A DNA stretch of 64,000 bases. Origin: Owenia fusiformis. Lineage: Eukaryota; Annelida; Polychaeta; Sabellida; Oweniidae. The stretch is from the NCBI GenBank assembly GCA_903813345.2, contig CAIIXF020000008.1:32388867-32452866 (forward strand), written 5' to 3'. Below, piece after piece: positions 1,092-24,226 of this stretch (the stretch's first letter is position 1; every line of letters starts with the position of its first letter). The notes beneath the pieces were generated by a model. It was not told the DNA's origin, did no database searches, and worked only from the letters and a program-made list of their open reading frames with translations. The translations under genes and the position numbers were made by a program.

Positions 1092-4000
1092 TCAAATTAT
1101 CTTAGTTGAGCATAAAGTGTGAATTTGTTCTGCATTAGCTGGACTGTTAAGTTGGAAGGGTTCTTCTATTCCTGCATCTTTGCGGGCTGCTGCTATGGCA
1201 TCCTTGATGGCAAACATCACAGCAATACTCATGTGTAGAGGGGGCTCCCCAACTCCCTAGAATAAAAGGAGATGTCATATCACGTTCTCACAATCAAATT
1301 TATTTAAGTCCAAGACCCAAAGCATTGTGGCTGCTTCATTCCACTCTGACAGACTGTCATCAAAATATGAGGTAACATTGATTATGTTGTGTAAAAGGTT
1401 AAAGCATTAAAAGGCAAGACTGAAATAAAAATGGTGTATTGGGGAGAAAACTTTCATGTTTTGGCAACATGACCATGCAAAAAAGCGGTTGATATACTTA
1501 TGGGTACATTTTTTGAGACACCCTGTATATTTGTCAGAAAACAATTATTACAATTAAACACAAGAAAAGAAGAATATACACATGAATAGCTGTTTAAAAG
1601 TTATCCTAAACTAATTCAAATTAATTTAAATTGACAAAAATGGGCCAAACATGTAGTTAGAATAATTATTCAAATAAATATTCGGTTACTGTAACTGTCA
1701 TGTACATGTTAAATCTGGTCATTGTGATATATGACAGTTTAATTATTTCCACTTTACCATTATGCATTTGCTCGCTTAAAAATAAGTCAAATTCTACCTT
1801 AGACCCATAAAGTACTGCTTCATCACTATGACTTGTTAAAATCTGCATGTTGAACTTTGTGGGTATATCCCTGACACCAGGTATCTTGTATGTAGTTGCA
1901 TCATTAGTAAGTAGTCTACCCTCGTCATCATATACTATTTGTTCTGATACAAAACATCCATATCCCTGAAATAAATATGACGAAAAACATTGACTTAACT
2001 CAAAGCTCATCCTTGCTGCAAGGGTATTTTACAAGTATGAATTTAGGCATAAATGAAGTCCTTTGACTAAGGATGCTCAAAGCTATGCATCATGTACTTC
2101 AGATATAACATACTGGTAGCCTTGGCTACATTTCTCAGAATATTGTGGTAAATAGCCAAGTTAATTTTGAACAATAATCTCGAAGTGACAAACTAAAAGG
2201 TTACTTTACTGGAACCAAACATACCATCATGAAAGCTCCTTCCATCTGTCCTATATCTATGGTTGGGTTCAAACTTCTACCAAAGTCCATCACACCATCC
2301 ACTTGAATAACCTGCATACACATGATTAACATGTAAAAATGCAACTGACTAGTTGCATTTTAGTAATAATCTATTATTTACAAAAAGGTATCACAATTTC
2401 AAATCATTTTGAGTGATGTTTTTAATTGTGGAGAAGGTTATGTTTTTACCACAAATTATTATCAAGAGGAATAATAAAATATTGAACGTATCACTCCAAG
2501 AGAGATTATCCATTTACTGTCTGACTAACACCAATATGGTATCCTAAACATTTCAACCAATAAGATGTTTGGTATAAGGATTATTTCAGGTTCTAAAATT
2601 GCAGCCACTAAATGATAACACGTCAAGGAATGAGGATGGATAGAGATTGTGTGATCTTTGAAGAAATATTTTCAAATACTGGATGACCATGAGGTGGATA
2701 TGCCAGAATACCTATCCGAGGTCTTGCTGCCACGTATGGCAATAGACCCTGCAGCTCTTAACCAATCAGATTTGAGTATTTTAATGAGGTGCATTTTCAA
2801 ATATCATGGTAAAATCTCCCCCTTACAATCCCAATTTTAAGTTTTGAAAAACAAAATGGAGATCTCTGTTGAAACAATTGAAGGTTTAAGATGCAAAATG
2901 TCTAAATTAATTAGAACTGAACAGGGGGGTATAAAATTGAATGGGTGTCCTACAATAAAGCTAAATCAGCTGTAAAATTTTTCTTTTAAAATCATAAAAA
3001 ACCTACTCCCAACTCTTATCGTTCTTATCTCTTCTCTCTAAAGAAACTGTGTTTTGATATTCCATTATCTCATGATTACGTAATCGTTTCTTTGGTATAC
3101 AATTACGCAAGCTCTGATCGATAGATAGCCGTCTCTCCATGACAAAAAGGTTAAATTGTAATATGTTATATTTTATGTAATAAAATCTATAAAAACGTAC
3201 ACATGTTCTTTGGATATAAACCCCTGCATATATTGCTGTTAATGGTTGAGATGATGGAGTTTCATACATTATAAACATGCCATCACAGCAAAAAATGCAC
3301 TCCTCACCCTATGTGCCCCAGTGAGGCAGTCTATTTCAACCTCTACTGCAACTGCCCCGTATGTGTAGTAAATATTGAAGTTTCCCTCGCGTGGTTTTTC
3401 CAACTCCCAGTTGTTCTCCTTAGGGTGATGGTAGAATCCTGTTGCAGAAAGGCTCGTACAATCATTGTAAGCTGCTAGAACCTAGCAAGCAGGCCAACAA
3501 AAAATTGTTTCACTTTTAGAATATTTCTGGCTCATGCCATTCCTTGTGATGTTTATTTTCTAAAAAGCTCTAAAGTGCACACTTTATTTCAGGAAAACTT
3601 ACGATTTTTACAATAATATATTATTTTTCTATAATAATGGTTACCATTCTTGTTATTTGGGAGGATTCAAGCATTTTCACCCATTTTTGCACTTTGAATA
3701 TATAATATATAATAACTTCACCAATTTATAATATATCGTGAATCTTTTGGGAGATATTGAATTTGAGATTGTAAGGAATAGACTGGTAGGTCAATTGTAC
3801 ACATTGCTTGTAATTTTTTCACCCCTATATATCTGATTCTGCCTTTAAGTAATTCCCGTTACTATTCGATTTGAAAACTATTGTCGTGAAGTATTGAATG
3901 TCCAGATTCCCATACATTCATACTACGGCCTAGTACAATATTCCATGAGGAATGTCCAGATTCCCATACATTCATACTACGGCCTAGTACAATATTCCAT

Positions 4001-7000
4001 GAGGAATGTCCAGATTCCCATACATTCATTCTACGGCCTTGTACAATATTCCATGAGGAATGTCCAGATTCCCATATATTTATTATACGGCCCAGTATAA
4101 TATTCCACGAGGAATGTCCAGATTCCCATACATTCATACTACGGCCTAGTACAATATACCATGAGGAATGTCCAGATTCCCATACATTCATTCTACGGCC
4201 TAGTACAATATTCCATGAGGAATGTCCAGATTCCCATATATTTATTATACGGCCCAGTATAATATTCCACGAGGAATGTCCAGATTCCCATATATTCATA
4301 CTACGGCCTAGTACAATATTCCATGAGGACAATTGTCTTTTGTTCCATTCTAGTCAGTCAGTATTTAAAAAGTAAATCAATATGATGATTATCCAAATTC
4401 TACGTCAAACAATCATATGTGCTGAGATGAGAGGTTTAAATTGTGATCTGTGCCTTAATATTTTGAGAACTATTACCTTAAGAATTATTCATTTTGCTCT
4501 GCGTTCAATGTTTGTCATTCTTTTATTTATGTGATATTCACCCAAAGTTTTCATTACCCACTCACCCAATCTTTCCATTTGCCATTTGGATTGCTTGCTT
4601 CGTAAGGAGCAAGTCTCGTAACTAACTTCTCACAAGCACGCTGGAAACATTTAGATCATTATTGGTTCGCAGTGAGAAAACAGTTACTGATCAATTGATT
4701 TTAAGTGTGAAGAAAATAATCTTAATCTTGGGAACAATCTAAAAGACTGAAAAATGAATATGAACGCATATGTACACATTGGTAAACATTCGTATACCAC
4801 AATTTTAAAATGAAAAGTAATTTACAAAAAGAAAGCTAAACAAATAAAAACTTGGACGAAGGATATAATGCAGTACATGTACCTTAACTGCCATACCAAA
4901 CAAATCTGTTCCCATGCTTTCTATTGTGGGCATTGCATTAGGGACACAGTCCGTTGTTGTTTCTGTAATGTGGATAACATCTTGTGGTACTTCAAGCACT
5001 TTACTTGCAACCTACAACACACCAACCTAACAAAGTATACAACAAATTTCAAAATAATACCCATGCCCATATACGTGTGCCTAATTGTTAGCCGTCTCGT
5101 GCCTACTACATGTATATCGCGGACAAAGCTAAGTTTAGTGATCGTACCTGTATTAGTTTTGTATGGAGTCCTTGGCCCATTTCAATGCCGCCATGGTTCA
5201 CCCATACAGAGCCATCAGTATAGATGTTCACAAGAGCCGCACCCTAAATGTGAATGAGAAAGGAAGACTTTCGATGTTGCAAATTGTAGTGTTATGTAAC
5301 TCACTCTTGGAATCACCGGCGGATCTAGAAGCTAACATGGGAGATTAAAATTTCCAATCTGGGAATCCTCTTTTACTATTTGGCCCAAGTAATGCCCATA
5401 AGGCACACTAATTGAGGCCCTACAAAATATTTGGGCCCAAACTTTTTTTGCCCTCCCCCGGATTCGCCAGTGCAAATGGTTTTCAAAATGTCATTAAATC
5501 GCCAGTTTAAGGTGAGTCTTGGCAAAAGTTGAGTCAGGAAATATGCTCTTTTGGTTCCTCGCCTACAGATGTTTTAAATATGTTTTATTGCTTATCACAA
5601 GTATATTTATTTTTTGTTTTAATGTGTTAATCTCCCGGTGAGAGTCAAAAATGAATATCCTAACCAAAATCAAATAGTCGTTATCATAGAAAAAACACAA
5701 ATGGCAACATCTACAAAATACGAAGTAAAAACAACTCGTAGCCTCATTAGCAATTAAAAAAGAATTTTTGAAATTATTTTTTGGTTCTCATATCTACTGC
5801 CATTTTAATTAAAAAGGGGAAAAGCATGATGGCAGCCGCTTGATGTAAGATATATCAAAAATTGCTTCATTTCTTGTTTTCAAATTGAGCACAGTTTTAC
5901 GGGAAAGATTTTTCAAATGATTCTGTTTATTATCTGGTCCTGTATAGGGATTTCAAATCATAACCGTAAAATTGCTAAGCATGAATTTAACCAAACTACA
6001 TATCGGTGTCCCAAAAAAGTGAGCCACTTTTTGACAAATATTTTCTCAGCAATAAATGACTTGAATTAATTGAAAACTGCAATAAAGTATAATAGTCTAA
6101 GGGTGTAACTAGCAAATGGTACAAGTATGAAAGAGATCAGTCACATATTTTAATTTAACCTGACCAAATTTTAATTTCCCTGTAATAACCCAAATGTTGC
6201 CTTTTTGTAGTAATGAACGACCTACTCCAACAGAACCACGAGTCATGCCTTTAATAATGAAAATCCAGTGTAACTAGTATAGAATATAACTGATTAGTCG
6301 TGACGTACCTGAGACCAGGCGTATACAGGTGAACCGACATTTCTAGTTATGGGAGCTATGTATAATCCTCTTTTGTTCCACTTGGATTTCCTTATAACAA
6401 AGACAATGAAAGAAAAATGTAACCGATATGTAGTAATACTGACACATTGCATCTTGGTTCATCAAGCTTCGGACCTATCCTCATAGAAAGTAGTGATTGA
6501 GTGTTGGAACTGACGATGGACACATTGCACTACTTAAATTTTTTCCATACTAATTGTGATGATTGTTAGTGTTGGTTAAACACACGAGGAACCAATTGCA
6601 TTCAATGTTGATTATATAAATATGTAACGGTCATATTTAACATATGTGAACATTAAGGTTTTTATCGAGGTATGAAACAGTATACCTGTACCACCTTTCC
6701 GGCAACCATTAATTTCAGTGTTTTTCCATTTTAAGTGCCTTACGTACGTTGATGTCACACATTTAATACTCACTTATTGAACTCTTCAACCATTTTCTTT
6801 TTCTCTACATAATTGCTACTCTCCCAACATCTCTGCCAACAAGTGTGCAGAGTGTGTGCATCAGGTAATTCACGTCCAAGTGGCGTCTGGTCCCCATGTT
6901 TTAGCATATTAATCTTGTGTACCTGCCAGAAAAAGCATCGTATCATAAAAGTCACTGCAAATACATGTACATGCTTAACATCTATATATGAGACAAATGA

Positions 7001-10000
7001 TGGTTCATCCATTGTCAGATAGTATTAAACTCTCAAGCACACAATAATTTTTGATATGCTATTCTAAATGTGGTCATACACCCATATAGGTGTCATGGCC
7101 ACTACTTTATAAAAATGCTGTATTGTTTTACTGAAATAAATAAAACTATATAATAATTAATTGTACCAGTAATCTCCCCAGGATTTTTTCTCAGGTGGGG
7201 GCAAAATTATCATTTTCATAATTCAGACAAAATTGGTCAAAATATGCCAATTTTTCTTGATTTTTCTCATTTTCAAGGGGTGCAAATGGATATTCAGATG
7301 GGTGCAAGTCTATTTTCAAAGTCTAAGGTGGGCACTGTGCCCACTTGCTTTAATGCTTGGGAGAACACTGTGTACATGTATATATAGTTAATACAGCCTC
7401 AATTCATACTGCTACCATTGACTTACTTGCTCGATGGGTAATCCTAGCCTAAATGCAACATCGTTTACCAGAGCTTGAGTGATGACCAGTGGCGGTATGG
7501 TAATATACCCTCTCACTGCTGCACCAAACTGGGTGTTTGTTTCACACGTGAAGCCTGTGACCTTCACATTGTTGAACGAATACCCTTGCTCACATATAAG
7601 AACAAGCAGTTGGAAATCCATTCCCTGTAATGAAAAAAAAACAAAAAAATAATCCAGAACTATACGACTATCATACATGTCAGTCAACTCTTACTGAAGT
7701 CATTATCATTCTGAACGAATATATCTAAATCTCTGAAATCAAACATCTTTATCAACAGTTATACCTCGTATATATTTTGTAATTGGAAGAATATTGGAGA
7801 GGTTAAGCTTTGCATATATAATCGAAACTGAACCTGTACGTATCACTCGACCATATACAAATTCATGTAGCCTTCTCATATAAATAGCCGTTCAAATCCA
7901 GTGTTTGTTTAGACTATACCATAGCGTGTAATGATTCTATAGTATGTCATTGATGCGGTTTTATAGCTGGTTTTCTAATACATATTTTAAACGAGCTCGT
8001 TTCGTAATATTTTTGGCGCTAAATCATGCATGACATACATCATCGTGTTCAGCAAGAATTCAACTGTGCATCGAAATCAAAATTGACAGCATAGTGTTCA
8101 ATAGACACGAGTAAAATGGTTCCCGTTGACCCAACGTCAAATTTCAAAATCTCCCGTTCTAAACCCGAAACTCTGAAGCTGAAAGAGTATCTGAAGTAGA
8201 CTAAGCGCGCATAAAACTATGAGCGCTCGATACATTCCTTTGTTAATTTTTGTACTTTGCGTTCACGGTTACGTTGTGAAAAACATCGTTAGCTTAACCT
8301 CTCCAATATAGTGTAAGATAACATAAAGACGAGGCTGAAACACGCGGCTGATAGAACCTTTGGATTACTCACGTCGAGAGCTACCATGTTAGATTTTGAA
8401 AGTATAGCTCTCCATCGTGAGGATCTCCCAGCTGAAGAATTGTGACATCTAAATTTGATCAGCGCCAGTCAGCGGCTTGCTGTTTGTCTCAAACTGTAGC
8501 CTACATATGGGCTCATATGTGTCTACTTTCCCCGTGCATGTAGGATCGCGGATGTGCTTCTATGGCGATCAGGAGTTCTAATCGTTTTTTGTTCGATACC
8601 CATTTCCAATATGGCGGTTAAACGGAAATACTATCGACGCATGCGCAACTTGGGAAACGTCAAGCCGACATATTGAATATACCTGGCCAAAACTTTTGAC
8701 ACGACCAATAAAATGAAGTCCTGATCGATACATAGGGCAGTGAGACGTTCTATAGTTGAGCTGAATGAAAGATGGCGATGTAGGATACATTTTCAGGTAT
8801 ATAATGTGCAACATGAGTCAGCTGAATTCCCTGAAATTTTCTTTGAAGTCAGGATTCTTAAGCTGTTGATTCTAGCGATAGAGAGCTATACTTTCAAAAT
8901 CTAAGTAGCTCTCGACGGGAGTAACCTTTGGACGTATGGAAGAAAAAGAAGTAAAATCCACTCTACTATACCTAACACCTAGAAATGCATAAGATACTTT
9001 GTTTCTCCAATTGTATTGTTTAGTATATTTTTGAAAGTACCTTATTAACATCTAACTTTCAACCGATAAACCATTAATAAGGAACAGACAAATAAAAACA
9101 AATACATAATCATTACTAATTAGCCAAATGGGTTGCTCATGAACACCAAATGCAAGGTATAGTAGAGTGGAATAGGTGCATTTATATACACAATACACAT
9201 CAAGTTGCAAAGTAAACTTTGGCATATAAGACCCCTAAAGTTTATGTTCCCAGTCTAGTTTTCAGTTGGTATTCTTTCCGATTGTCATCACACATGTTTT
9301 TTGGACTGATCACCACTTCTTGTTTGGATAAGATGCTCAGTTATTTTGTTCCAAGATGAATAACTATGTTGTGGAAATGGCTTTCTTGAGCTTCATCTAC
9401 AGTGATGTCGTCCCAAGTCCATCTTGTTGGTTGATTTGATGTATGATAATTTGTCAATTGTGACTTAGGATCGATGTCATACAACTGTTATAACACGACT
9501 TACAAATTCAAGAAATGAACCAAAGAAGCCTCCATCTTCGTAAACTTCGATTTCATGTGCAAGTATCTTGCCTTCGTTACTGCACCCAACCTTTTAGGAA
9601 AGAAAAATCACAAAAGTTCTTAGAGAGCTCAGTCCGACCAATTCTAGTGTAATCTTAAGGATATTGTAAAGGAAAATGGAACTTGTTTTAACGTTTGGGG
9701 GGGGAGGTGAAATAAGAGGCAAGAAGATCAATTGTAACGGCTAATTACAGAATGTTCACACGGACAAAAAAATTAATGTTATCTACGTACAAATGCAGTA
9801 ATTCAGTCTCATGATTGGGCGTCCATGACACACCCTCCTCTGTAAGTCTTTCAGCCCCTTTCCTCCAATTGCACTACGTGTTAAAGACATCACTTCAAAC
9901 AAATACTTAGCATGCTCCAACACATAGTCAATTGGGAGAAGTGATAGGGTTGCTTAACTTGTAGAGGTGAGTGTACGTTTACCTTATATTTGGCGTACAT

Positions 10001-13000
10001 TCTGCTCCTTTTTCCAGTTGCACACATGTCTGTTTGACGATCAAGAATAAGGCGCGCCGGCCTATTGAATCTTTTGTAGATAAAAAAAGTAAAAATGTAC
10101 ACCACTACGGCAAACGAATATGCTAACAGAGTTAGAAAAAGATAAATTGAAAACCACAACTATAAAAGTTATAAGGAAAGAAACCTTAACATTCCGACAA
10201 ATGCTCCAATATTCAAAGAAACAAAAAATAAAATAACCCCATCTACCCATCGATCATTTTCAGAGTTTATTGATGCTGCTTAATACTAGCAATATGTTCA
10301 TAATGACCTTACTTGGTGGCCGCTAATGCAGCAACTGTAGAGAATTTCTCAGCACACATTCCCTTTCCTCCAAACCCACCACCAATTCTCTTTACATGAC
10401 ATCGGACACGATTCTTAGGAACACCAAGCATTTGGCTGATACTTTCCTAAAACACAAACTTGACACATATGGTAAATATAATGAATACAAGTCAAGTAGA
10501 CAGCTATTGCAAGGGGGGGGGGGTCACTTTTTATAAGAGATCCAGGGGCATTTACTCGATTTTAAATTTTGCCCAAAATCAAATGAAGAAATGCTCAGAA
10601 TGGTGAAAAACAACATAAATTTGAAATAAATTTTGGCCAAGGCGAAGGAGGAAGGGGTCCACACACCCTGAACCCCCCCCCTGACTACGTGCCTGCATTC
10701 CTTTAGCCTACATTGAGAATCAATTCCCAACATACCTGTGCTGTATTCAAACTCTGTGTTGCTGTGGTGATATCAACTTCCCCGGCCTCTCCAATAGGGA
10801 CAGCAATACAGGAATTTGGCTCCATGTAGAAATGTTCTTGCGACCCCATTGAAATATGTCCTATAATATAATCACCATATCTATTAAAGCAAATGTATAT
10901 TTTGAAAGCAGTTTTGTGTGTTTAAATATAAAGACAGTGGCTTAATGTATAGGAATGTTGCTTTATCTGGGTCACAACGACACCTATTTCTACAAGCAAC
11001 CAAAGTTTTATAGTAAGAAATAGATGTGCTCGTATTTTTATTTCAGGGATCTTTTACCAAAATTACCTTCAAACACCAAATCAGCTTCTTTGAAGCCCGC
11101 CTCTATATCTCCCACTTCTAAAACCTTTGGATTTGGAAGGTAGCGTTTCTCACGAATAGCCGTCTAAAAAAGTTTAATATACGAACTGTTTATATCAAAT
11201 TAGCTTGATATTATATTATGTGAACAAAATGAAATTATTTTGTGCTCTACACATTTGACCGTGCAATAGAAATATGTACCTCTAGTTTGATGACAGCAGG
11301 TAGGTCCTCATATTCTACATGTACATGTTGCCTAGCGGCCACGGCTTGCTCAAGGGTATCGGCTACAATAGCACCGATAGCGTGTCCATGGTACAATACC
11401 TTAAAATATACAACAAAAATATACCCTTTGTATCAAAAGTCTTTTCCTCAAAATATCTCAAATAACTTGTAAATTACCAGTTAACTTCATAAAAACTGTC
11501 ACATATATTTTACACATTCCCCAAACATTTGGAGACGATTGATTAAGTTTTACTCAAAATATTACATCTTGAACATTGCATATACCAAAAACACAAAACC
11601 AAAATTATGAGCAATCAGAATCTGTTACAGACTTTACAAATAGTTCTGTGCACGATAGCTGTATATTTTAGTGTAAGGTGCCACTGAAAGATATGTAATA
11701 ACAACGAAAAATTAAAGTCCTAGACCTTACACTTGGGTCTTATAACAATGTTGCATTACTATTCATTTTTTTGCTATATTTCCTTAATATTTACCCCTTT
11801 CCTTCCTGCCCAATCATATCAATTAGTATGATTTTATGACTGATGTGTTAATTTGATTGTCTTGATGTATTTTTGGTATTTCATTCAAATGAATCTATCT
11901 TATTATTCTTCTTATATATTATTTTAATATCATTTTATTGCAATAATTCTGAATCATAATACGTCGACAAGATACACCAATGATAGGGTGCTTATTGTGA
12001 TGACATATTTCTATATCCCTAAAATAATTTTGGGCAGGAAATGGTTAAGACTAGTATATTAACATGTTCTAGGGCTGTTAAATGTATGAGCACATTTAGA
12101 GAATATTTCATAACATATTCTGCTCATAATAAGCATTTATTACTTTCGTCTGCTTAATTTTACTGAGCAGCTTATTTTGGTCAGTTTGATAATCTTAGAT
12201 AAGTTTGACGTCACAAACTTGTGAAAAGTCACATCGGTGTTTATGTTCTATATGTGATAATTTGAGAAAGAATAAATCATCTGTCTTCAATTTTTACAGA
12301 ATGTGTATTATATACCTTTAAATATATGACTATTGTGTAAAGTTTCATCAAGTTTACTCACCATTTACTAGTTATTCAAGGGTTTTCGCAATAGGAAAAG
12401 ACTATTGGTACAGAGGGTAAGTATTAATATGGACTTTGGATTGATTTCATATTTGAATTATATTTAATGGGATGGTTACTCGTTTTATGGTTTGGCAAAC
12501 GTACCTTTTCATTCGCAAAGATGCCTTCTGTTGTGGTTGTTCTTGGTATATTAACTGGGTTAGGTATGTCCTTGTAACTGAGGAAGCCTTTAACACCAGG
12601 CATGTTCTCTGCCTTAGACGCATCAATACTGAGTATCTTAGCATGGGCTTTGGTTCCAGTTACCAGAGCAATGTGAAGTTCATCTGTAGCATAAATGATA
12701 TATCGGTATGAAATATCAGGATATTGGTAGACACATGAATGTTATATCTAATCCATAATAACAGATCAGATTTTTTTCGAAGTCGAAACTTTCTGGCTTT
12801 GCTTAAATTTGAAGCAGGGAAGATTAATTCTCTATACCACAAGGCGTGAATACAAAAGAAAAGTTTTCTTACTGTTGTATGTAGGGATGTCATCACAGAA
12901 CACAGCTTCACCAGTCGCCTGTTGGTAGGCAGATTTATGCAGGACCGGTTGGCCAACATAATCAATTCCATTCTGGCCCATGGGTAAAGTCTCAAATATC

Positions 13001-13059
13001 TGGCTTCCACTACTTAGTGGTTTATGTCTTACACTTGAAAAATCATGAATGATTTCACT
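1092..13059 (-). CDS. Gene A exons 16-33: molybdenum-cofactor catalytic domain with altered pocket
   Basis: Residues 529-1307. Family landmarks in order: GQPVLHKSA and [12 protein letters not shown] (domain start), [10 protein letters not shown], Gln758 (Gln767 of bovine enzyme), GGGFGGK followed by Gly793 where XDH has Glu802, LDRQTDM, Arg905 and Tyr907 (bovine Arg912, Phe914), [51 protein letters not shown], and Glu1257 in GVGEPPL (bovine catalytic Glu1261). The glycine-rich GGPQ after Arg912 is replaced by ITIPP, and the Phe-Thr pair that sandwiches substrate (1009-1010) by Ser-Pro. Catalytic Glu1257 is kept, so a redox enzyme with a different substrate, or a crippled one, are both possible. 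Bovine residue numbers are from memory. Confidence 0.9.
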
Positions 13060-16000
13060 CTGGAAGCACAGTAATATAATTACAATATGATGAAAACGGG
13101 TTACACTTTTCCAAAATCTAGGACAATTTTTCAACTTCGTAGAAAATTGTAGTCTCAAAAATGATATGGTACATCTCTGTATGACACACATGCTATGACA
13201 TTTAAAGTGCTATTACACATTTAAAGTAAAATAAATGGATTGACACGCATTTTTAAATTAATTGGTTTTATTTAATCAGCTATTCTAAAACGTCTGGCAA
13301 ATACTGATTATTTTGATTGAATCCCGGGTTCTCCGACAGATTGCTTAAGAATATGTTATAGCAACTATGATAATGTATGCAAATATACCTCTGCATTTTG
13401 AAGACTCGACTGAACTTTAATGAAAAACTTCAGAAAAATGTTGGCAGTCAAGGACCTCTTGTAGTTAGTGCTTCCACCAACAGAGGACCATGTTACATCA
13501 AGGTCATCTCCAAGGAGTCCACACACAAATGACACTAAGTCTTGTGTCCATTCTCTAAACCAGACAAATAATTATCTATTTTAATGAAAGATTAAAATGA
13601 TGTGTCCAAAATTAATGGTAAGTACACCAAATGACTTCTTTATTTGTGTTCTCAAAAGGTAGACATGGTTGTTTCTCAAAGGGTTCCTATTCTAAAAATC
13701 TGTCTATAGTATACAAAAATTTAGTCGTAAATCTTCCATACTTTTCTCTCGTCTTTTCCCTCACTTGAGTAGCAATCACACTTTTATTATCAATACCACC
13801 ATAGCACAGAACCAAATCCTTTATGCTGTTTGTATCAGGATTAAACTTCACCTTCATTGCAGAATTCACTGTGGCACTGGCCAAGTCGGTTCTTTCTGCA
13901 TGTTTGTGCCAATATACATATTCATTCTAAAAAATCAAAGAATAAATAGCGACACCAACCATTTTATATATAGCCTAAGCCTAACTGGTCTTAATACTTA
14001 AACGAGGGATGGCCACTGATCTCAACTACCAATAATACATCAATGGTCGGAGAAATTATAAATTGACAACTGTTAAGCAATTATTCAAACATCATCGTTT
14101 GAATTTATTTACCTGTTTCATATACGGAATATACACACCAGAAATCAATTCATGTGGTTCTAAACTAGACTTCCCATCTTCTTTATGAAGCCCAAACACA
14201 TCTTTAGTCTTAGTAGACTTGTCTGAAAATGCATATTCCCAACTTTTCAAGAGGTTAGAGGCTCTTTAGCTTAGACCTGGTTAATTTACTTGAATATACG
14301 AAACTCATGAAGATCATTATACGCCAAGGTCATACAATACTTATTCTTTAAGCACGATTAAATAATGTTAATACTTTTAAAAACTTGATTGCAATATTGA
14401 AGTATTAAAGGTTCCTCTAACACGGGCATGTTTGAAAAAACTTACGTAAAATATTTCATCCTACATCCATAGGATTTCTTCAGTCACTGTTGATTGTAAT
14501 AGTTTTTATATGGGTTAGAAATCTTAATTGTTGGTTACCATATTTTATTGGAAGACTATCAATGAAAATATAGTTCCAGTGGCAATTTTTATTCTTTTGC
14601 AACTATAACTAAAAGTGTTTCGAACGAGAATGAGCAATTTAGTCATTTATACAAGAACAAAAATATTTAATCAAACACATATTTTTTTTAACTCTACCTA
14701 AAACATTGTATACATCCACTGTTGCTCCAATAGCTGTCATCATCGTGCAGATGTCAGATGTTGGTCCTCCGCTTGCAATATTGCTGCCAATGCTCTAAAA
14801 GTGTATGGTCTCAAACTTACGTTCTTTGCAATTATCAAAGCTACAGTTATTTTAGATATAACACTTAATTTATAGTCCATTTCATGCATTTCAAGCAATA
14901 CACATAATTTTGAATGGAAGTGGGTTTTTGAGGAAAAGAAAGAACGAAAACCTGACCTAAAATTGTATTTTATTCCTTGAGAAAAGACCAAGTAGCATAG
15001 CATCGAGGTTTTTGGCAATTGCCAGAGTAAAATCTTTGAGCAAGATATATATTAGAGTTAAGGTATTTGTTACATTTTTATATGATTTGAAAGTATGTTT
15101 CATTCCTTTCAATATCTTCTTCGAACCCCTTTTTATCTGAAAAATTATCAATGTTTTAAACTTTGTATTAACCGGATCTTTTCTTGAAAAAAACAATTAT
15201 GAGCATTCAGATTGTTTATTTCCTAAACTATCAATAAAATAAAACACCCAATACGTTAACTAGTCAATTATTGAATTTACTAGTTCGATCAAACCGATTA
15301 TATAGCACTTTAATCAATTTTTAATTATTGTGTGTATTTTCAACATTACTTACAGCAACATTCCTTAGCTGATGTCCACCAACTTGATGAAGCATGTCTA
15401 AGAAACACTCAAAACCAGCCTTTTGATTACCTGGAATGATACACATCCGCTTTGAAACAATAAATACATGTTTTACATTGTTTTCTTGAAGATAATATAA
15501 CAGTTTGGATATTGGGATATTGGGATCTGTCTCTTCATCTCATTGATTTTGCTCATACATGTTTTTATTTCTATCAGTTGTTTGTATTGTAATATGCTAT
15601 TTATCTCTCCCCTTGCAGCAAGTGCTAAAAGCATAATTCTTAACTATTTAGTTGAAGTGATAAAGTAAGATGATTAATACACTATTGTGTGACATTATGA
15701 TCAGAGATGTTCACAATTGCCATGCTTATATTTATTTCTATTATATTCATTTACCATTTTTAATTCAAAGCATACAGAACGCAATTTGATATAAATACCT
15801 TAAAGAGGACAATTTATCAGAAAATAAATGTGCGCACCTTCTGATTTCGAAGCCTGCATTTCAATATATTCAAACAGCGATGCAAGTGTGACTGTTGCCC
15901 CCGCCTTGATACATGTATCAGTTGTTGTAATGTTGTCAAGACCTTCCACATTAGTCAGACAAATTACCACAATTTTACTTTGACTATTGCGTATGTATTT

Positions 16001-19000
16001 TCCTGAATAAAACCAAACATAGTTTATATGTCATGAAAGATATAGCATGGGCAGGTAATAAGATTACAAATCAAGCACGAAATTATGATGGTGAACATAA
16101 GAAAGTCAGTCATACCTTTATCCATCTGCCATAAACATGGAAAACACGAGTATCAAACTGTGTGTATAACTAATAATGAAAGGAAAAATATTACGTGTTT
16201 TAGTCCAATATTTAGCAAAAAAATGTTGCAATTACTAAAGTAAGTATAATTTAAACCAAAATCAAATATTAGAATTATCCAAAAAGTATCTAAAATGTAC
16301 TTGGATATTAAAAGAAATATGATATTCAGCAAATTAACATTGTCACAAATTTACTTCACCTATACTTGTTGCCCCAACTGTATATACTGCATCGGGATAT
16401 TGTTGCTTCAGCTGACTCACTTCATCAAGGTGTCGAGGTCTATACCAGTCCACATTTTGACTCTTGAAACATAAACTCTGTGTTTGGAAGGTTGCATCCA
16501 ACTACAAAATAGTAGCAAGGGATTACAACACTTCTGCAACATTTACTGATATCAATTTTTTCTTCCAACTATTGCTTCAAAACCCCCAAGGAAAATTCGT
16601 ATGACTACTAGACATTAAAGATTAATAATGTAATAAACTTCTCATACTAAGCTCTCATTTTAGAAATGTTAACAAATGATGCATATGTAGGTTATTCAAC
16701 GTAAAGCTATCTTAACGCTCACTTGTAGTTCACTAGGGAAGATAGGATCCTGTGTCGGGTCATACACAGCAAACTCACTAGCATCAAATGTTTTTGAACA
16801 AACCTATAATGCGTAAAAGAAGTACGTTACGTCAAAATAAAGGGTCGTAAATGATACTTTCCAGTAATTTTCATCAATTGGTTTCTATTGTGGCTAGTGC
16901 TGATATATATATGTGTAGGGAAAGGTACCAAAACAGCATACATCGGCAACAAATTTCATATATTTACCTTAATGTCACCGTCGACAGACAAATTCTGGAT
17001 TTGGCAACAATTCTCTCCTTCTTGGCACCTCCACTCCTAGATAAATCAGATTTATCCAATTAACGATAACTATATTTACTCATGGCAGTACTTTACAATA
17101 CATAAAAATGTTGAAAATTTGCGAATAGGATAGACCACAAGGAATGATTGCAGATACATAAAGGATAAATAAGAACGTGGGTCAGGATATCGATAATAAC
17201 GAAAATTGTTCAAAGTCTGAAAGACCAACTTAATCACACATATCATTAAATGTTAATACCATATCCTTCTCCTGGGAGCCAGATGTCAATTTTGTACATT
17301 GGTATCAAAGACAAAGCGATTGTATGCACAAATTGTTTACTGCATATCTACCTTGCTAAAGCTTCTGAATCCAGCCAGGATGGCTCTGTAGCCAGTGCAC
17401 CTACAGAGATTACCTAAAAATAGTTTTTATTCTCAAATCCAATGATACTTTTTCCATTTTACTAGCATCTTGAGATACATCAACTATGGAACAATGGTCA
17501 CTGTATATATGTTCATTGTATGATCATTAGAAAGTCTAGTATGTTCGTATTTTATCTAATCGTGTATACTCGTACAGTAGTTTTATTGCATAAAAGTCCT
17601 ACATTTTTTTCTATTTGAAGATTCTTTTTTTCTGACACATATCTTTTATATGCCATTGTGGTGTCTAAGATTGTGACATATTGCATGTTTTGCACTTATA
17701 TTTTTATGATAAATAGAATAAATACTTAATGCAGTTATTAAAAATGCAAAGTAAGCAATAAGTAATAATGGAACGTCTTTTTAGGAATTCGGTAGGATAA
17801 GAAGTATTTTTTCTGAAACATTCATCATTATTGTTTAATGAGCACGGGTAATGATAGCTAGCTACAAATAAATCTTTACAAAGGCACAATCTTCATGTAA
17901 CTACCGTGAAATTGTTCGAAACTTTATGAGCACCATCTTTAGTACCACTGTGTAAAATCAAAAAATCAAGACTTTATTGTCAATAATGGCGATTTAATGT
18001 TGTTTTGAAAACCATCTGGAATACCTAAAGTCCTCTTTTATGAATTGCCAATTCCCGGCTATTTAAACTCATTTACTCAATAACGCAAGGGGGTCACAAA
18101 ACCCGGAAATTTATTTGTCGTGCAGTCCATGTTTGTGATAGCGCCCCCTGCAGGTCACTGCGCTAAACAGCCTACTGTGATTATATTGGACAATCAGATA
18201 TGGGTGTGCGCGCGCAACTTATCCACTGAGTGGAACGCGACTACCCCGCGAATTTGCCGGATATTGACTTTTCCCTTGCATAATTGATGCTCATGAGTCC
18301 GACACCATGGTCATGTCTTGGATTACCTTGGAATGCAGTCTCTATCTGAGCCATGGAGGGCTCTGGGTAATTACGTAGTAATGTGTACATTGACATCACA
18401 AACCCAGGAGAACAAAATCCACATTGTGTGCCATATGCCTTTGCCAGACGCTCCTGATATAATCAATAAAATTAATATAAAATAAAAAACGGTATATTTA
18501 ATTGTCTCGACACTCCTTAGTTTATAAGGAATTTATTCATTTATTGTTAAATAAGAAAAATTAACGAAATGATAAACTGGGTTAGGTAATTATATTTCAA
18601 AATTTCCCATTCAAATGTATTTCCCATTGACGAAGTGACATTCATGGTCTTACATTATTTTAAAATATAAACGTTACTTTCAGAATACCTGTACAGGGTG
18701 TAATTTAGTTTTTGTGCTACCTATCCCCTCTACCGTTGTAACAGCTAAACCATGAACAGCTACCAGAGGCATCAGACAGGCATTCACACTGTAGTGTCTG
18801 CAAAAGTCATTAAGTTAATGCATATGTGTCAATAACATACACATTTAGATTGAAAAGAGCATGCAAAATCGCATAAAAAGTCAGAAAGTACAGTTAAACC
18901 ATACATAGCTACCGGGGGCATCAGAGAGGCATTCATACTGTAGTGTCTGCAAAAATCGTTCAGTTTACACCCCAGTCACATTTCCTACGGCGACCCTGCG

Positions 19001-22000
19001 GTCCATCATTTCTGCGGCCAGTAACATTTCTACGCTCGCCGTGGAATTTCTGCGCTCTCATACTTTTGCAGTCACCTTTCCCACGGCAGCCGCACGTTGA
19101 ATTTTACATTTCTGTTGATAAATAATACTTTTTTCATTTTATTTACATCGGGACAATTTATAAATGTTATTCATAGTGCTAGGATGTAATATCAAATGAA
19201 AAGTGATCGTGAAACATTGACAAATAATGATTCAATCTTGTTGAGCCAGTTGATTTCTACGGGGACCTCAGAAATGAACAAATATTATAACTCCGAGTTA
19301 TAATTTCTACGCCTTCCCTGCGGCCTGTAAAAATCTGCATACGCCGTACGGAGGCCGCAAGGCGAGCGTAGTTTTTCTACGCTCGCCGCAGAAATTCACC
19401 GATTTAATTGATCTGCGGTCGACTTGCGGCCGCTGTGCGACAAATGTGACTAGGGTGTTAGGCATGCGAGTCAAAAAATGTATTGTCTACTTATGACTGG
19501 TATGCACTTAGAGTTTGCTTTTTCTTGCTAAGTTCCATTACAACTTTTGGTCCTTTCCCTTTGGCACACGTGCTTATATATTCCACTCATCCGGATCCGT
19601 TGTTTTAGGCCAAAAACATGATAAAACAATATACACCTTTGGATTGTTAAGAGCATGCAAAATCGCATAGAAAGTACAGTTAAACCATGCTTAGCTACCG
19701 GGGGCATCAGACAGGCATCTGCACTATATTGCCTGCAAAAATCGTTCAGTTATGGCATGTGAGTCAAAAAAATGTATTGTCTACTTATGACTGGTATGCA
19801 CTTAGAGTTTGCTTTTTCTTGCTTAAGTTCAATTACAACTTTTGGTCCTTTCCCTTTGGCACAAGTGCTTATATATTCCACTCATCCGGATCCGGATGTT
19901 TTAGGCCAAAAACATGATAAAACAATATACACATTTGGATTGTTAAGAGCATGCAAAATCGCATAGAAAGTACAGTTAAACCATGCTTAGCTACCGGGGG
20001 CATCAGACAGGCATTTGCACTATATTGCCTGCAAAAATCGTTCAGTTCAGGCATGCGAGTCAAATATAGATGTAGGGTCTACTTTCCACTCATCCGTTGT
20101 TTAAGGCCAAAAACATGATATCATATTATCATCCATAGATTTTACTCCTACATACAGAATCTTGATAGATAAGACGAAATTGTACTAAATAAGATGAGAG
20201 TAAATCGATATTTTAAATCTGATCTTTTTGACCATAATTTCTCTTTCATTAACGATCCATATTGTGACTGTGGAGCTCGAGAGACAGCACAACATAAACC
20301 CTTGTCCTGCCCTCTGAGAGAAACAAATGCGCTAGCGGTGGTTAAACATGAACTAAACTAAATACAAAACATTAAAAAATAACTTTTTGGCGACAAGGAT
20401 CTGACAAATGAAAACAATTCCAAAATCTTTAAGGCAGTTATAAACTTCATTAAACATAATTAAACAATCGATAACAGTAATTCAATTTCAGGGCATCAAC
20501 GGGGATACAGACAGGTAGTAAAACAGATTGTATTTTAATTTTATATTTTTTTTATACTAACTATGAATATGACTCTAAAATATAATTAAATTGTAATTTA
20601 AATTCACTTAAAGCGGCAGTAGAAATGCCCTTTATGGACGATTACGCCGTGATTAACAATGTAAATTTATTTAATGATTTAAAGAAATAAATGAGTATTT
20701 ATTAAAAAAATCCATCGATTTTTGTATAAAGAAATGAGTTGATAGGAGAGGTATTTAAGAAATTATTACACTTTTAGAGGGTTCTGTTTTTTGGGTCACC
20801 CTGTATTATCTGCAACGTTCCAGTTCCTTAAAGGTATGCTCTGGCACTTATGAAAATACCATATCTTTCCAGATATAGTCTTTGTGTAAAGTCTTGCCAA
20901 AGCAGAATCAAAGACATATACAGGGTGGGCCAAAAATCCAATACCCAAGTTTAAAGATGAATGATGCATATGAAATATGTTTAACCATGCCATGTATAAT
21001 ATACCATTTTAAAGATAAATCATTTCCTAACAAACTGACACCATCCAATTGAAAAACTTTTTGTTTTCTCAATAAGTTAGAGATTAAATTGACACCAGGG
21101 AGTGAGCGATCAAAAATCAAAAATTCCCAAATTTCCCTACAATTATTATCGCTCATGACACCCCTGGTGTAAATTTTAGCTTTATCCACAAGAAAACAAC
21201 AGTTTTTCAATCAGATGGTGTCATATTGTTAGGAAAAGATGTATCTTTAAAATGATATACAATACATGGCATGGTTTAGCGTTATATCATATGATATTCA
21301 TCCTTAAACGTGGGTATTGTTTTTTTTATCCCACTCTGTATATACGTAATAAGTTTCAAACCAATGTGCTTTTTATATACCCTGCTGGAATTAAGAGTTG
21401 TTTTATAAAAGGGTGAATTTATTGCAGGTTTGAAATACAGATAGCTATAAACAAGATATGTTTTAAGTGTTTGAATTTTAGATAGGCAGGACAATATTAT
21501 GAAAAAGATACAGTTACTGAATGGGAAACAATCGTTTAGGAGACTCCCCCAATTTATTGCATTTGTCAACCATCTTTTAATATCATCATATTTCTTTATT
21601 AATAGTTTTTATAATGCGATTGAAGTAACTCGTATATTACCTTATTAGTTTGCTGCTGGGATTGTAGCTCGAGACCATCACGGTACAAGACCCACAACCT
21701 CCATCTCCGCAAGCCAACTTGGTACCAGACAGACATACTGGTTATTTCTTAAGGATCTATAACTTGATTCTCAAATTATTGATTGTCTTACCATTTTAAA
21801 GACTTTTCAATCAATATTTTTTCAGTTTTCATTTCAATGCATTTTAAACAATGTGTCAATGTTTGAATATCAAACAATTACTAAATACATGTAAGTAAAA
21901 AGGATACACTCTTGTCTTAGGAACTGAAGCAGAGTTGTCTCTGGTCTAACATTCTCTTTTACAATCTGGAATATAAACATTAACTACAGAGTGGTCCAAA

Positions 22001-24226
22001 AATGGGGCACTCGTATTTCAAAAATAAATATTGCTTTTCTTGATGAAAACATGTCATATTATATACCAGTGCATAGGGAATTTACTCATCTTTAATTTGG
22101 TATATCATAAGTTCAAATTTATCATAATGTCTGTCAACCAGCCTTCATAATATAAATAAGGTCATTTTCGTTTCAAAACGGGGTTTCAAAACTTGCAAAA
22201 ACAAGTTTTTTGTCATCTTGATTTACATAAACAGACACCCAATATGTCCACCATTTTGATCAATTATAGCCCTCAGTTTTGGCTTAAACTGGTCAGAACA
22301 CCCTGTTTCGTCACATAACAAAATGTTGAAAATGTCTAAACGGACGGAATAAATATCGCTTCGTTGATTGACCGATTGGTTTTGTGGCGTCTCACAAAAC
22401 TCTGCGGGCAACTGCCAGGGGGAACAATATTGGGCGTGAACCCAGATGGTGTTTACCCTACTATCACACCAAACTAGTTCTCACTACGTTCTCGAAAACG
22501 GGCTTCAACTGTGTACGAACGGACTGGACCTACTAAGAACCGTTTGGGATCTATTTACAAACTTCATCGAACGTACTCGAACGGGTAGGTCCTCTAGAAC
22601 TTAGACAATGCTCAAAATGTTTTCGTGGTCGTCACGTTCTACAATTAGAACGAGTGACAACGTACTAACGACGAGCTGGACGTACTACGATCGGAACCGT
22701 CGTACTTCAATCCTACTAGGGACGTTTTAACAACGAGTTGAACTGTCCGAGGACGTGTTGAGAACGAGGTAGAACTAATTGCAAACGGGTTTAAACTGAT
22801 TAAGAACGTATTTAACACTGCTGATGAACGAGTTAGCAAAAAATAGCTATCACACCAAACAAGTTGCCACTGCGTTCTTCAAAACTGGTCTTAAACTGTG
22901 TGCGAACGGAATGAACGTAGCTGCAACTTTCTAACGTCTATTTACGAACTTTATGAACGTTCTCAGACGGGAATGTGATTTTAGAATTTTGAATCGATTC
23001 AAAGTTCGATGACGACCATACCGTTCTGTAATCAGGTCATGTTGACCTTCTAGACTAAGGGACGCGTTCTACTACGTTGCACACCGACGTGGTGCGACCT
23101 GAACGAACTGCGAACGAGATGGACGTATTGAAGACTGTTTAAGAACGAAGAAGCTAATTATTTCAGACATATTTCCCGACCACAGCCAGATTGAGCCCGT
23201 TTTAGGACGTTTTCGTAGGACTGGCAAGAACGGGTAAGAACTAGTTTGGTGTGATAGGGGGGTTATTTACATAGTTGTCATCGGGCAGATGTATCAAGGT
23301 GAGGTAGGAAAAATCGAAACCTTGTGAATCAAGATGCATTTTCTGGGTGACCCTAACCAGGTTTGTAGAAAAAACCGGGTACCGGGTACTGGGTAGTAAA
23401 TCCTCCGTGTTTGGTTCAAACTTGGTACCCGGTAGCCGGTCGAAAAAACCGGGTACCCAAAAAACGAAAAATACACAATAGGATCATTTGAAAACGTCTA
23501 AGATTTGTTTTGAATCTACAAAAATGTATGTAACTTCCTTCAAAATTGAGCTAGAAGCTTCAAATAAAAAGCATTTTTAGGCTCTTTTTCCTCTATCATC
23601 ATGGTCATATTTTCATTGGTTATGGGGGGGAGGGGGTAGGAGATCGCACCATCGAACCGATTTGAAAAACGGTTTGAAAGACGATTAAAACATGGCAAAT
23701 CAATCTTACTCTATTTTTAATAGTTCGTATGTTGGTACGTGAATTGTTTTGATTATGATTTAAATCTGTTAATAGCTATCGTTACTTTAGCAGAGAGGTT
23801 ACGTGTGTTAATTAACATAATGCATCGTGTAAGATTTTGATTATTAATCATAATTTAAGTTATCCCAATTTTCGACGAAACGTCCACTGAAGTGTAAATT
23901 GTTACGTCTTACAATGTCATAGGCGTAGCCAGGAGGGGGGTTCGATCGGTGCGATCGCACCGTTTTCCTTGCTGGTTTATGAGCTAGTTGGTCACCCCTT
24001 CACCTCGACATGTTTATGGGTTGCACAAATACTCCACCAAACTCTCTTCCCGCCATACACTGTACGGATACAGTTAATTTGGTGGATTTTCTCAATATGA
24101 CGTTCATGAACACATCATGTTCCTTTCTTAGACTTACAGTAGATGTCCTTGCTTTCTGATGTATAAACAATAAAAATAGAGTCTTACCTTTTGTCCATTG
24201 ATATAACACACCAGACGTGTGTTCAT
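1092..24226 (-). CDS. Gene A: complete xanthine dehydrogenase/aldehyde oxidase-family molybdo-flavoenzyme, 33 exons, 1307 aa
   Basis: Exons 5' to 3': 24226-24188, 21965-21908, 21737-21641, 18797-18689, 18453-18327, 17413-17352, 17036-16968, 16803-16723, 16501-16360, 16002-15838, 15430-15354, 14794-14698, 14222-14113, 13926-13742, 13554-13389, 13059-12873, 12683-12505, 11399-11280, 11163-11067, 10860-10736, 10446-10313, 10070-9983, 9590-9504, 7624-7427, 6922-6774, 6390-6309, 5243-5148, 5011-4883, 4640-4566, 3481-3308, 2311-2225, 1965-1798, 1256-1092. All splice sites are GT-AG and all phases agree; the total is 3924 nt including TGA. Length is close to vertebrate XDH (about 1330). The start codon is the ATG opening [13 protein letters not shown], the expected N-terminal strand, with A at -3. 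The family hydroxylates purines or aldehydes using Moco, two [2Fe-2S] clusters and FAD. No N-terminal signal peptide is apparent, so cytosolic location is inferred. The altered substrate pocket makes the substrate unknown. Introns not listed separately showed nothing recognisable. Confidence 0.93.
1257..1797. other. Gene A intron 32
   Basis: No gene seen. The stretch around 1498-1532 ends in ACACCCTGTATA, a sequence common at the ends of mariner-type elements; no matching second end was found, so this is at best a remnant. Confidence 0.3.
2312..3307. other. Gene A intron 30, nothing recognised
   Basis: AT-rich intron between the [10 protein letters not shown] exon and the FYHHP exon. Two short open frames occur, but neither shows family resemblance or codon structure, and I treat them as chance. 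No repeat was recognised. Confidence 0.4.
3897..4328. repeat. 54-bp minisatellite, 8 copies, with a three-unit higher-order pattern
   Basis: Eight units of exactly 54 bp begin at 3897, 3951, 4005, 4059, 4113, 4167, 4221 and 4275, inside intron 29 of gene A. Each begins AATGTCCAGATTCCCAT. Units fall into three types by internal variants (CATACTACGG, CATTCTACGG, TATTATACGG) in the order A A B C A B C A, so a 162-bp higher-order unit was duplicated. Because 54 is divisible by three, the minus strand stays open through 18-residue repeats. No splice sites or family match support coding. Confidence 0.9.
5244..6308. other. Gene A intron 26, possible ancient repeat fragment
   Basis: No gene seen. 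Two similar short motifs, CCGGCGGATCTAG near 5318 and CCCGGATTCGCCAG near 5457, bracket a stretch rich in GGCCC and may be the end of an old transposable element. The remainder is AT-rich without recognisable structure. Confidence 0.25.
7794..8306. mobile_element. TA-flanked MITE in gene A intron 23
   Basis: The left end TTGGAGAGGTTAAGCT and right end AGCTTAACCTCTCCAA are exact inverted complements. Each is flanked by TA, the target duplication of Tc1/mariner-type elements. The 513-bp interior has no transposase-like frame, so it is non-autonomous. Confidence 0.75.
8365..8924. mobile_element. 560-bp element with an 8-bp target duplication
   Basis: Ends are near-perfect inverted repeats (TTACTCACGTCGAGAGCTAC at the left; the right complement differs at one base). 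A further match spans TTAGATTTTGAAAGTATAG inside both ends. The direct repeat CCTTTGGA flanks both sides (8357-8364 and 8925-8932). An 8-bp duplication is typical of hAT or P-type transposons, but the termini are not diagnostic and no transposase is visible. Confidence 0.75.
8959..9169. mobile_element. 211-bp CAC...GTG MITE, copy 1
   Basis: Termini CACTCTACTATACCT and its complement. It is a near-copy of the element at 30949-31160, sharing internal blocks such as GAAATGCATAAGATAC. Here the flanks (AAATC and GAATA) match only partly, suggesting an older insertion. It lies in the intron homologous to that of the gene B copy. Confidence 0.8.
11400..12504. other. Gene A intron 17, nothing recognised
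   Basis: AT-rich 1.1-kb intron. I found no terminal inverted repeats, tandem repeats, or frames resembling known proteins. Confidence 0.4.
13389..17036 (-). CDS. Gene A exons 7-15: linker and FAD-binding domain
   Basis: Residues 165-528. Exons 7-8 form the linker with the CC pair (ENCCQ) and [12 protein letters not shown], matching the DPTQEPIFPPEL of XDH. FAD-domain landmarks are [12 protein letters not shown] (GNTEIG in vertebrates), and [18 protein letters not shown], which matches the flavin-contacting VASVGGNIITASPISD. Exon 14 carries VKFNP and LVLCYGGI, matching the XDH segment ELALCYGGM. The region matching the vertebrate FFPGYR loop is not conserved (exon 13). I therefore make no call on NAD+ versus oxygen as electron acceptor. 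Confidence 0.9.
17352..24226 (-). CDS. Gene A exons 1-6: the two [2Fe-2S] domains
   Basis: Six exons encode residues 1-164. The first cluster is plant-ferredoxin type: Cys42, Cys47 and Cys50 in [11 protein letters not shown], plus Cys72 in VNACL. The second cluster uses Cys112 and Cys115 (QCGFC) and Cys147 and Cys149 (LCRC). TTVEGIG and LHPVQERLAK between them are family signatures. All eight cluster ligands are present, so the electron-transfer module looks functional. Exon 1 codes only 13 residues and is separated by a 2.2-kb intron holding an 807-bp transposon. Intron 3 (18798-21640) holds decayed copies of exon 4 and several mobile elements. Confidence 0.92.
17414..18326. other. Gene A intron 5 with a GC-richer patch
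   Basis: No gene. A patch at about 18080-18260 is richer in GC than its surroundings (GCGCCCCCTGCAGGTCAC, then a CG-repeat near 18209). This suggests inserted repeat DNA, but I could not define ends or a family. Confidence 0.25.
18890..18946 (-). pseudogene. Decayed partial copy 1 of gene A exon 4
   Basis: On the minus strand this begins with the exon's acceptor context (TGCAG then ACACTACAGT) and continues through the CLMP...VHGL-like segment before similarity stops after about 57 nt. It lies about 150 bp from real exon 4 (18797-18689). No donor site follows, so it is probably not used. Confidence 0.75.
18968..19457. mobile_element. 490-bp TTA-flanked MITE in gene A intron 3
   Basis: Ends CACCCCAGTCACATTT and AAATGTGACTAGGGTG are inverted complements with one mismatch, flanked on each side by TTA. 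The neighbouring duplicated segments show the empty site (TTCAGT then GGCATG without the element), which confirms insertion. A TTA duplication fits PIF/Harbinger-type elements. The interior is rich in short complementary GC motifs (CTACGCTCGCCG and relatives) and has no transposase. Confidence 0.8.
19676..19732 (-). pseudogene. Decayed partial copy 2 of gene A exon 4
   Basis: Minus-strand translation gives [18 protein letters not shown], against [18 protein letters not shown] in the real exon. The [2Fe-2S] cysteine codon is still present. The 3' half of the exon and the donor are missing, so inclusion in mRNA would disrupt the protein. Confidence 0.75.
19972..20028 (-). pseudogene. Decayed partial copy 3 of gene A exon 4
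   Basis: Almost identical to copy 2 ([18 protein letters not shown]), as expected from the tandem duplication of the enclosing segment. It lacks the exon's 3' half and donor. Confidence 0.75.
20173..20361 (+). pseudogene. C-terminal fragment of a non-LTR retrotransposon ORF2
   Basis: Open for about 62 codons to TAA at 20359-20361. It carries the zinc-finger-like tail typical of non-LTR reverse-transcriptase proteins, [20 protein letters not shown], preceded by an RVNRYF segment. The upstream reverse transcriptase is missing. It is an old 5'-truncated insertion in gene A intron 3, in the opposite orientation to the gene. Confidence 0.65.
20921..21338. mobile_element. 418-bp palindromic mariner-type MITE
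   Basis: Ends CAGGGTGGGCCAAAAATCCA and the inverted right end (...ATCCCACTCTG), flanked by TATA/TA. Complementarity continues inward through much of the element (AATTTGGGAATTTTTG-type blocks around a centre near 21125). It is non-autonomous, in gene A intron 3. Confidence 0.75.
22456..23262. mobile_element. 807-bp TTA-flanked element made of two related halves, dense in GAACG/CGTTC
   Basis: Left end CCCTACTATCACACCAAACT and right end AGTTTGGTGTGATAGGGGGG are inverted repeats, flanked by TTA (22453-22455 and 23263-23265). A second copy of the terminal sequence (CTATCACACCAAACAAGTT) occurs inside at about 22846, so the element looks like two related halves in tandem. GAACG and CGTTC pentamers are scattered throughout at high density. 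No transposase frame was seen. It lies in gene A intron 1. Confidence 0.7.

Follow-up and report, generated by a model that had tools for sequence, protein, structure and literature searches.

Two genes of the annelid Owenia fusiformis, here called A and B, are tandem neighbours on the minus strand of a stretch of 64,000 nucleotides (the window; C8:32388867-32452866 of the 498-Mb genome). Both are members of the xanthine dehydrogenase (XDH) and aldehyde oxidase (AOX) family of molybdo-flavoenzymes. We consider it probable that A and B are part of a clade of molybdo-flavoenzymes that arose from XDH by duplication and would have retained the ordinary chemistry of the family, with a substrate pocket that was rebuilt and has diversified in each copy. 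Judged from its sequences, the group is best termed an XDH-derived, pocket-diversified clade. A and B probably oxidise something other than xanthine.

In XDH, the purine is sandwiched between Phe914 and Phe1009 and bound by Arg880 and Glu802, as described in parts of PMC5746545 and PMC3864932 (residue numbers are those of bovine XDH). An earlier note on this DNA had read the FRGFGGPQ loop of vertebrate XDH and the Phe-Thr pair as replaced in both genes, and the alignment bears this out. The two loop exons are complete and correctly placed, and the loop aligns without gaps to vertebrate XDH and AOX; at bovine residues 911-918, A reads VRGYITIP and B reads MRGALTIP. Arg912 is retained, and the changes are Phe914 to Tyr in A and Ala in B, Gly915 to Ile and Leu, Gly916 to Thr, Pro917 to Ile and Gln918 to Pro. 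Phe1009-Thr1010 is Ser-Pro in A and Thr-Pro in B, in the exons given in Table 1. Glu802 is Gly in A and is retained in B, and Ala1078-Ala1079 is replaced by Ile-Glu in A. Arg880 has also been lost, as the note had claimed, while its replacement by Leu is doubtful and hangs on a clade-wide insertion of two residues between bovine positions 868 and 889 (before Tyr889). MAFFT places Phe at 880 in A, B and a third gene of the clade, C3, whereas C9 has Ile there and the remaining four have Ala, and HMMER likewise gives Phe for A; a gap-free count from the 3' side yields Leu instead. The position is non-basic in all eight genes of the clade under either alignment. Of the XDH substrate residues Glu802, Arg880, Phe914, Phe1009 and Thr1010, none is present in A, one (Glu802) in B and all five in C8b, an ordinary XDH of the same genome.

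The catalytic machinery was found as the note had described it. The glutamate of the GEPPL motif (Glu1261) is retained in both genes, all eight iron-sulfur (Fe-S) cysteines are present in A, and these motifs can also be read in the model of B. Gln767, Arg912, Gln1040, Gln1194 and Glu1261 are kept by 8/8 members of the clade. Because the catalytic, molybdenum (Mo)-centre (apart from one Met/Leu exchange) and Fe-S residues are retained, normal Mo-hydroxylase chemistry with an altered substrate would be expected.

As a control we used bacterial relatives that were found via peptide patterns around QEHFY and HGGxEMGQ and therefore form a biased sample (the best 80 of 564 confirmed; L083 and L102 were too short and were dropped, leaving 78, of which L057 looks frameshifted; 20 of the 78 entered the trees). 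Among these 78, Arg880 and Gln918 are present in all, Glu802, Phe914, Gly915 and Phe1009 in 77 each and Pro917 in 76; looser positions are 911 (Phe in 67), 916 (Gly in 67) and 1010 (Thr in 60). Positions 802, 880, 914, 915, 918 and 1009 are also intact in bovine XDH and in C8b. Because these positions are near-invariant in the bacterial relatives, the replacements in A and B lie, on this alignment, far outside normal XDH variation. They are less strange beside AOX. In part of PMC5746545, XDH-like AOX are described as never conserving Arg880 or the glutamate at 802 (position 803 in that paper) and as lacking conservation of the Phe-Thr pair; part of PMC3864932 describes the Phe1009 position as variable among AOX (Phe-Pro in mouse AOX3) and the Phe914 position as highly conserved across vertebrate AOX and XOR. 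On these accounts, AOX already provides known cases of a lost Arg880 and of a varied Phe1009-Thr1010 pair, including one with proline. It is the loss of Phe914 together with that of the GGPQ turn that, as far as the sequences tell, goes past vertebrate XDH and AOX and is the truly unusual part.

Related genes and their ancestry

Matches to MoCoBD_1 and MoCoBD_2 in this genome sort, by our own reading, into 12 genes and one partial copy. C8b has Glu802, Arg880, the FRGFGGPQ loop and the Phe-Thr pair of an ordinary XDH, and C6a and C6b have the loops RSPGS and RAPGS, as in the Protein Data Bank entry 7PX0. A gene on C5 (C5:17995600-18005700; L001, L025) is XDH-like, has GFGAKN at 802, Lys at 880 and the loop MRGLGVPS, and belongs to neither group on a long branch. 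The remaining eight genes are A, B, C9, C3, C8x, C8y, C8z and C4. With the loop exon of B as query, at least eight loop exons of this kind were recovered, one per clade gene (8 matches among 9 candidates scored). The loop reads RGSIYIQP in C3, RGFMTPPL in C8x, C8y and C8z and RGFMSPPL in C4. A hydrophobic residue at 915 and the loss of GGPQ are common to all eight, and Phe914 is retained in the four genes with RGFM(T/S)PP. The note had held that a deep clade sharing the RG-x-x-TIPP loop would support a new subfamily; within this genome the exact string RGxxTIPP occurs in A and B and is not clade-wide (2/8). C8x, C8y and C8z (C8:27531500-27648000; L005-L011) are tandem sisters of about 95% identity that have Glu802 and Phe914 and lack Arg880, and on these residues the trio stands between XDH and the A/B pair. 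A second copy of the 3' exons of C3 lies about 60 kb away from that gene (C3:14958500-14967500; L026) and is a partial duplication or an assembly artefact; it was not counted as an extra gene (C3b, C3:14.96 Mb) because only 3' exons were recovered and the upstream part aligns as noise. Among the open-licence PMC papers listed in our searches, judged by titles and abstract beginnings, we found no description of an invertebrate XDH/AOX expansion or of this loop, which is not proof of absence.

The animal sequences compared were those of the window's own genome and Protein Data Bank chains. The eight genes form a clade with support of 100/100 (648 columns), which is unchanged when the pocket columns are left out (571 columns), and contain two subclades (100/99 and 100/100). 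C6a, C6b and 7PX0 form a separate clade (100/100), and human AOX1 groups with bovine XDH outside the eight genes. When the long branches of the genes with an RxPGS loop were removed, bovine XDH, human AOX1, C5 and C8b formed one group that excluded the clade (86, quick tree). The tree that would contradict the note, with A and B as ordinary XDH carrying isolated changes, was rejected: forcing A, B, C8b and bovine XDH together alters the log-likelihood (lnL) by -366 units (p 1.7e-6), though this constraint also splits the clade. A fairer constraint that holds the whole clade with C8b was not rejected (approximately unbiased test, p 0.195), and the corresponding values are 0.199 for C8b plus vertebrates and 0.076 for C5. 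Of the distinct subfamily that had been suggested, the clade itself, its kept Mo centre and its rebuilt pocket stand, and its separation from the XDH line has to be qualified.

Intron positions, compared by place and phase and counted by eye, bear on the same question. Of the 15 positions in the molybdenum cofactor (Moco) domain of A, 11 are common to C8b, 12 to C5, none to C6a and one to C6b; C8x, C4 and C3 have all 15. Because the introns match C8b at 11/15 positions and the AOX-type genes at only 0-1/15, the clade is most simply seen as an XDH-derived offshoot. The simplest reading of its history would be duplication from an XDH gene, then fast change on the stem and then more duplication.

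Pocket diversification and alternative readings

The ratio of nonsynonymous to synonymous divergence (dN/dS) in the Moco domain is 0.144 for A and B and 0.13-0.22 across the six pairs of A, B, C9 and C3, and no stops were seen. Pocket positions behave differently. An 8-residue pocket list was taken from part of PMC9864848, and lists of 21 pocket and 14 Mo-centre residues were partly compiled by us and were fixed before scoring. The four genes A, B, C9 and C3 have a mean pairwise difference of 0.204 across 656 sites, of 0.036 at the Mo-centre positions (one of the 14 varies, Met/Leu at 1038), of 0.667 at the 8 pocket residues and of 0.675 at the 21. The 8-residue value was reached by 1 in 20,000 random draws and the 21-residue value by none, and circular shifts gave 0.0046 and 0.0015. 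When non-overlapping 9-residue segments were ranked by variability, 6 of the top 7 contained residues of the 21-residue list. C8x and C4 differ by 0.50-0.52 in the pocket versus 0.29 overall. Bovine XDH and C8b, the only pair of ordinary XDH, follow the opposite trend (0.125 for 8 residues, 0.19 for 21 and 0.394 overall). At the 21 pocket codons dN/dS is 0.57-1.13 versus 0.10-0.17 elsewhere, and synonymous divergence is similar inside and outside the pocket for five of the six pairs. At the level of sequence, diversification of the pocket is thus shown. Pocket segments of 51 columns gave Fisher p values of 1.2e-4 to 2.3e-7, but they were chosen after the ranking of segments and come from six non-independent pairs, and we do not rely on them.

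Several results weigh against the reading that we favour. In the free tree the clade stands beside the AOX genes with the RxPGS loop (89/87), which conflicts with the intron evidence; a place for A and B in that group was set aside, as the tree leans towards sisters but the introns disagree. Divergence of the pocket is also seen where AOX is involved, between bovine XDH and human AOX1 (0.875 for 8 residues, 0.667 for 21 and 0.48 overall) and between C6a and C6b (0.50, 0.476 and 0.451), and on these comparisons AOX-like behaviour explains much. For B and C9, synonymous divergence per site is higher at the 21 pocket codons (0.47, from about 16 sites) than elsewhere (0.29). In general it is unlikely that gene conversion has acted outside the pocket, but in this pair it may have done so. 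The site models, which were written for this analysis and run from a single start, did not detect positive selection: M2a was no better than M1a (lnL -5764.23 versus -5764.22), and the gain of 3.7 lnL by M3, which assigned omega 2.6 to 3% of sites, is not enough. Of the 13 sites of the fast M3 class, the 21-residue list contains 6; a further 4 are at most two residues away from a listed one, and 809, 842 and 952 are farther off. Positive selection was accordingly not retained as a demonstrated fact. Finally, B may be a fresh pseudogene, as discussed below.

The strongest competitor, which we put a little short of an even chance and which overlaps with our own reading, is that the genes are ordinary aldehyde oxidases that arose from XDH independently and have nothing new in the pocket. 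A is altered at the flavin adenine dinucleotide (FAD)-side residues Arg335, Trp336, Arg427, Asp429 and Asp430 of XDH, which we take to matter for the use of nicotinamide adenine dinucleotide (NAD+). The losses of Arg880 and Glu802, the variable Phe1009-Thr1010 and the proline at 1010 are the AOX traits cited above. The replaced GGPQ turn does not fit, however, and B and the four RGFM(T/S)PP genes have the glutamate at 802 that PMC5746545 describes as never kept in AOX. An account by relaxed constraint, in which extra XDH copies are kept for a generic oxidase role (e.g. superoxide or H2O2) or a structural one while the pocket drifts, agrees with the lack of gain by M2a and with a pocket dN/dS that is near 1 and not above it in five of the six pairs. 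We nevertheless regard it as unlikely, given that the Mo-centre residues are fixed bar one, that Glu1261, Gln767 and Arg912, which would be needless without turnover, are present in 8/8 genes, and that the rest of the Moco domain is strongly constrained. That the copies are degenerate or dead seems very improbable to us. A is under purifying selection and is not decaying, since its dN/dS with B is 0.14, and its 34 open exons with uniform GT..AG introns led us to reject it as a degenerate gene. The case for a dead copy is made by B, where an element in exon 12 carries the reading frame into an in-frame stop (60068-60066, residue 379 of the model), so that the assembled B is probably disrupted if splicing does not remove the element. 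Because the exons past the element are still open over 935 codons, any such loss is probably recent.

Gene models and an element in gene B

The model of A was obtained with a spliced aligner written for this analysis and has zero internal stops. It predicts a protein of 1309 amino acids, with an inferred start (upstream MNTR) and a C-terminal end LCSTKII followed by a stop, and in a scan of A the cut-offs of seven of seven Pfam domains were passed (Fer2, Fer2_2, FAD_binding_5, CO_deh_flav_C, Ald_Xan_dh_C, MoCoBD_1 and MoCoBD_2). The exons of B correspond to those of A, and the first four lie outside the window. An intron of A contains a 54-bp unit repeated 8 times in tandem (window 3896-4329).

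In the FAD domain of A (window 12505-24214), Asn261 and Glu263 of XDH are replaced in addition to the five residues named above. Because positions 335, 336, 427, 429 and 430 differ from XDH, A may use another electron acceptor and behave as an oxidase.

The element in exon 12 of B, which encodes part of the FAD domain, spans 4.03 kb and has inverted repeats of 754 nt that are 91% complementary. With one arm as query, every one of the 40 places scored out of 229 candidates was a match (the two arms of the element itself are counted). The matches are spread over contigs C1-C12 and the small contig C185, and the best other copy is 98% identical. It is for its repeats and its copy number that we call the element transposon-like.

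Table 1. Features of the window (coordinates are window positions unless C8 is given)
Feature	Position	Strand	Basis
Gene A, 34-exon XDH/AOX-type molybdo-flavoenzyme	1092..24226	-	spliced alignment, 7 Pfam domains
A exon, catalytic GEPPL (bovine Glu1261)	1095..1256	-	alignment
A exon, PTIES (Ile-Glu at bovine Ala1078-Ala1079)	4883..5011	-	alignment
A exon, Ser-Pro at bovine Phe1009-Thr1010	6309..6390	-	alignment
A exon, loop VRGYITIPP (bovine 911-919)	7427..7624	-	translation, alignment
A exon, GGGFGGKG (Gly at bovine Glu802)	10313..10446	-	alignment
Gene B	26252..64000, extends beyond the window; first four modelled exons C8:32455055-32457489	-	spliced alignment
B exon, catalytic GEPPL	26255..26416	-	alignment
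B exon, FTAGS at bovine 1076-1080	27976..28104	-	alignment
B exon, Thr-Pro at bovine 1009-1010	30120..30201	-	alignment
B exon, loop MRGALTIPP	30721..30918	-	translation, alignment
B exon, GGGFGGKE (Glu802 retained)	32982..33115	-	alignment
Multi-copy element with long terminal inverted repeats, in B exon 12 (FAD domain)	56112..60142		repeats, copy number

Proposed function and comparison with known enzymes

If A and B work as other Mo-hydroxylases do, the residue at the position of Glu1261 would deprotonate Mo-OH, which would then attack an aldehyde or N-heterocycle at an electron-poor carbon; a hydride would pass to Mo=S and the electrons would leave via two [2Fe-2S] centres to FAD. Xanthine would be held poorly or no longer without the Phe914/Phe1009 sandwich, Arg880 and, in A, Glu802. 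The variable walls of the pocket (771, 802-803, 871-880, 907-918, 1009-1014 and 1075-1079) would select the substrate, and each copy probably has non-purine substrates of its own in the fashion of AOX isozymes, with purine oxidation presumably left to the canonical XDH C8b. It might be speculated that Glu1079 of A replaces Glu802. A bolder proposal, which we regard as doubtful but worth stating, is an invertebrate radiation of XDH-derived Mo-hydroxylases for specialised or chemical-defence functions, each pocket having been selected for its own substrate. In A, the acidic group would now stand at 1079 instead of 802 and the aromatic clamp would be missing, and neither XDH nor the AOX of vertebrates or insects would have a comparable reaction site.

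A clade that keeps the Mo site but varies substrate residues that are nearly fixed in XDH represents a natural experiment on those residues, and it is a source of Mo-hydroxylases with unpredicted substrates. Caution is advised in naming such genes XDH or AOX and in inferring purine or aldehyde metabolism from them.

With animal XDH (bovine, PDB 1FO4/3UNA, and C8b) the enzymes have in common the order of domains, both Fe-S motifs, Gln767, Arg912, GGGFGGK, Gln1040, Gln1194 and Glu1261, in addition to the 11 introns counted above, and full-length A is 44% identical to bovine XDH (1295 columns). They differ from it in the replaced Phe914, Gly915, Pro917, Gln918, Phe1009, Thr1010 and Arg880, in the two-residue insertion, in the altered FAD-side cluster and, for A, in the loss of Glu802. 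Scores against the NCBIfam XDH models are 597 for A in xdhB (cut-off 849.5) and 384 in xdhA (cut-off 467), compared with 845 and 535.7 for bovine XDH as control; because bovine XDH itself falls just under the xdhB cut-off, the latter is not set for animal XDH. Vertebrate AOX (human AOX1, 4UHW; mouse AOX3, 3ZYV) resembles the clade in lacking Arg880, in not keeping Phe1009-Thr1010 and in forming a family of paralogues, and A resembles it further in lacking Glu802; AOX differs in keeping Phe914 and FGxPQ, and B and the sister subclade retain Glu802. Against the mammalian AOX model TIGR02969 (cut-off 1912.3 bits), A scored 1096.5 and bovine XDH 1603.9, with no AOX positive control. The AOX genes with the R(A/S)PGS loop (C6a, C6b and 7PX0, which is listed as Aldehyde oxidase 1 and which we take to be an insect AOX) have likewise rebuilt the 913-918 loop and lost Arg880 and Glu802, but their loop reads R-(A/S)-P-G-S and they form their own clade with 0-1/15 introns common to A. 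Fungal HxnS (purine hydroxylase II, a nicotinate hydroxylase) is a further XDH paralogue of changed specificity with an altered Phe1009-Thr1010 pair; according to part of PMC5746545 it retains Phe914, Phe1009, Arg880 and the glutamate and inserts an alanine between Phe and Thr, whereas in the clade described here the whole pocket has changed.
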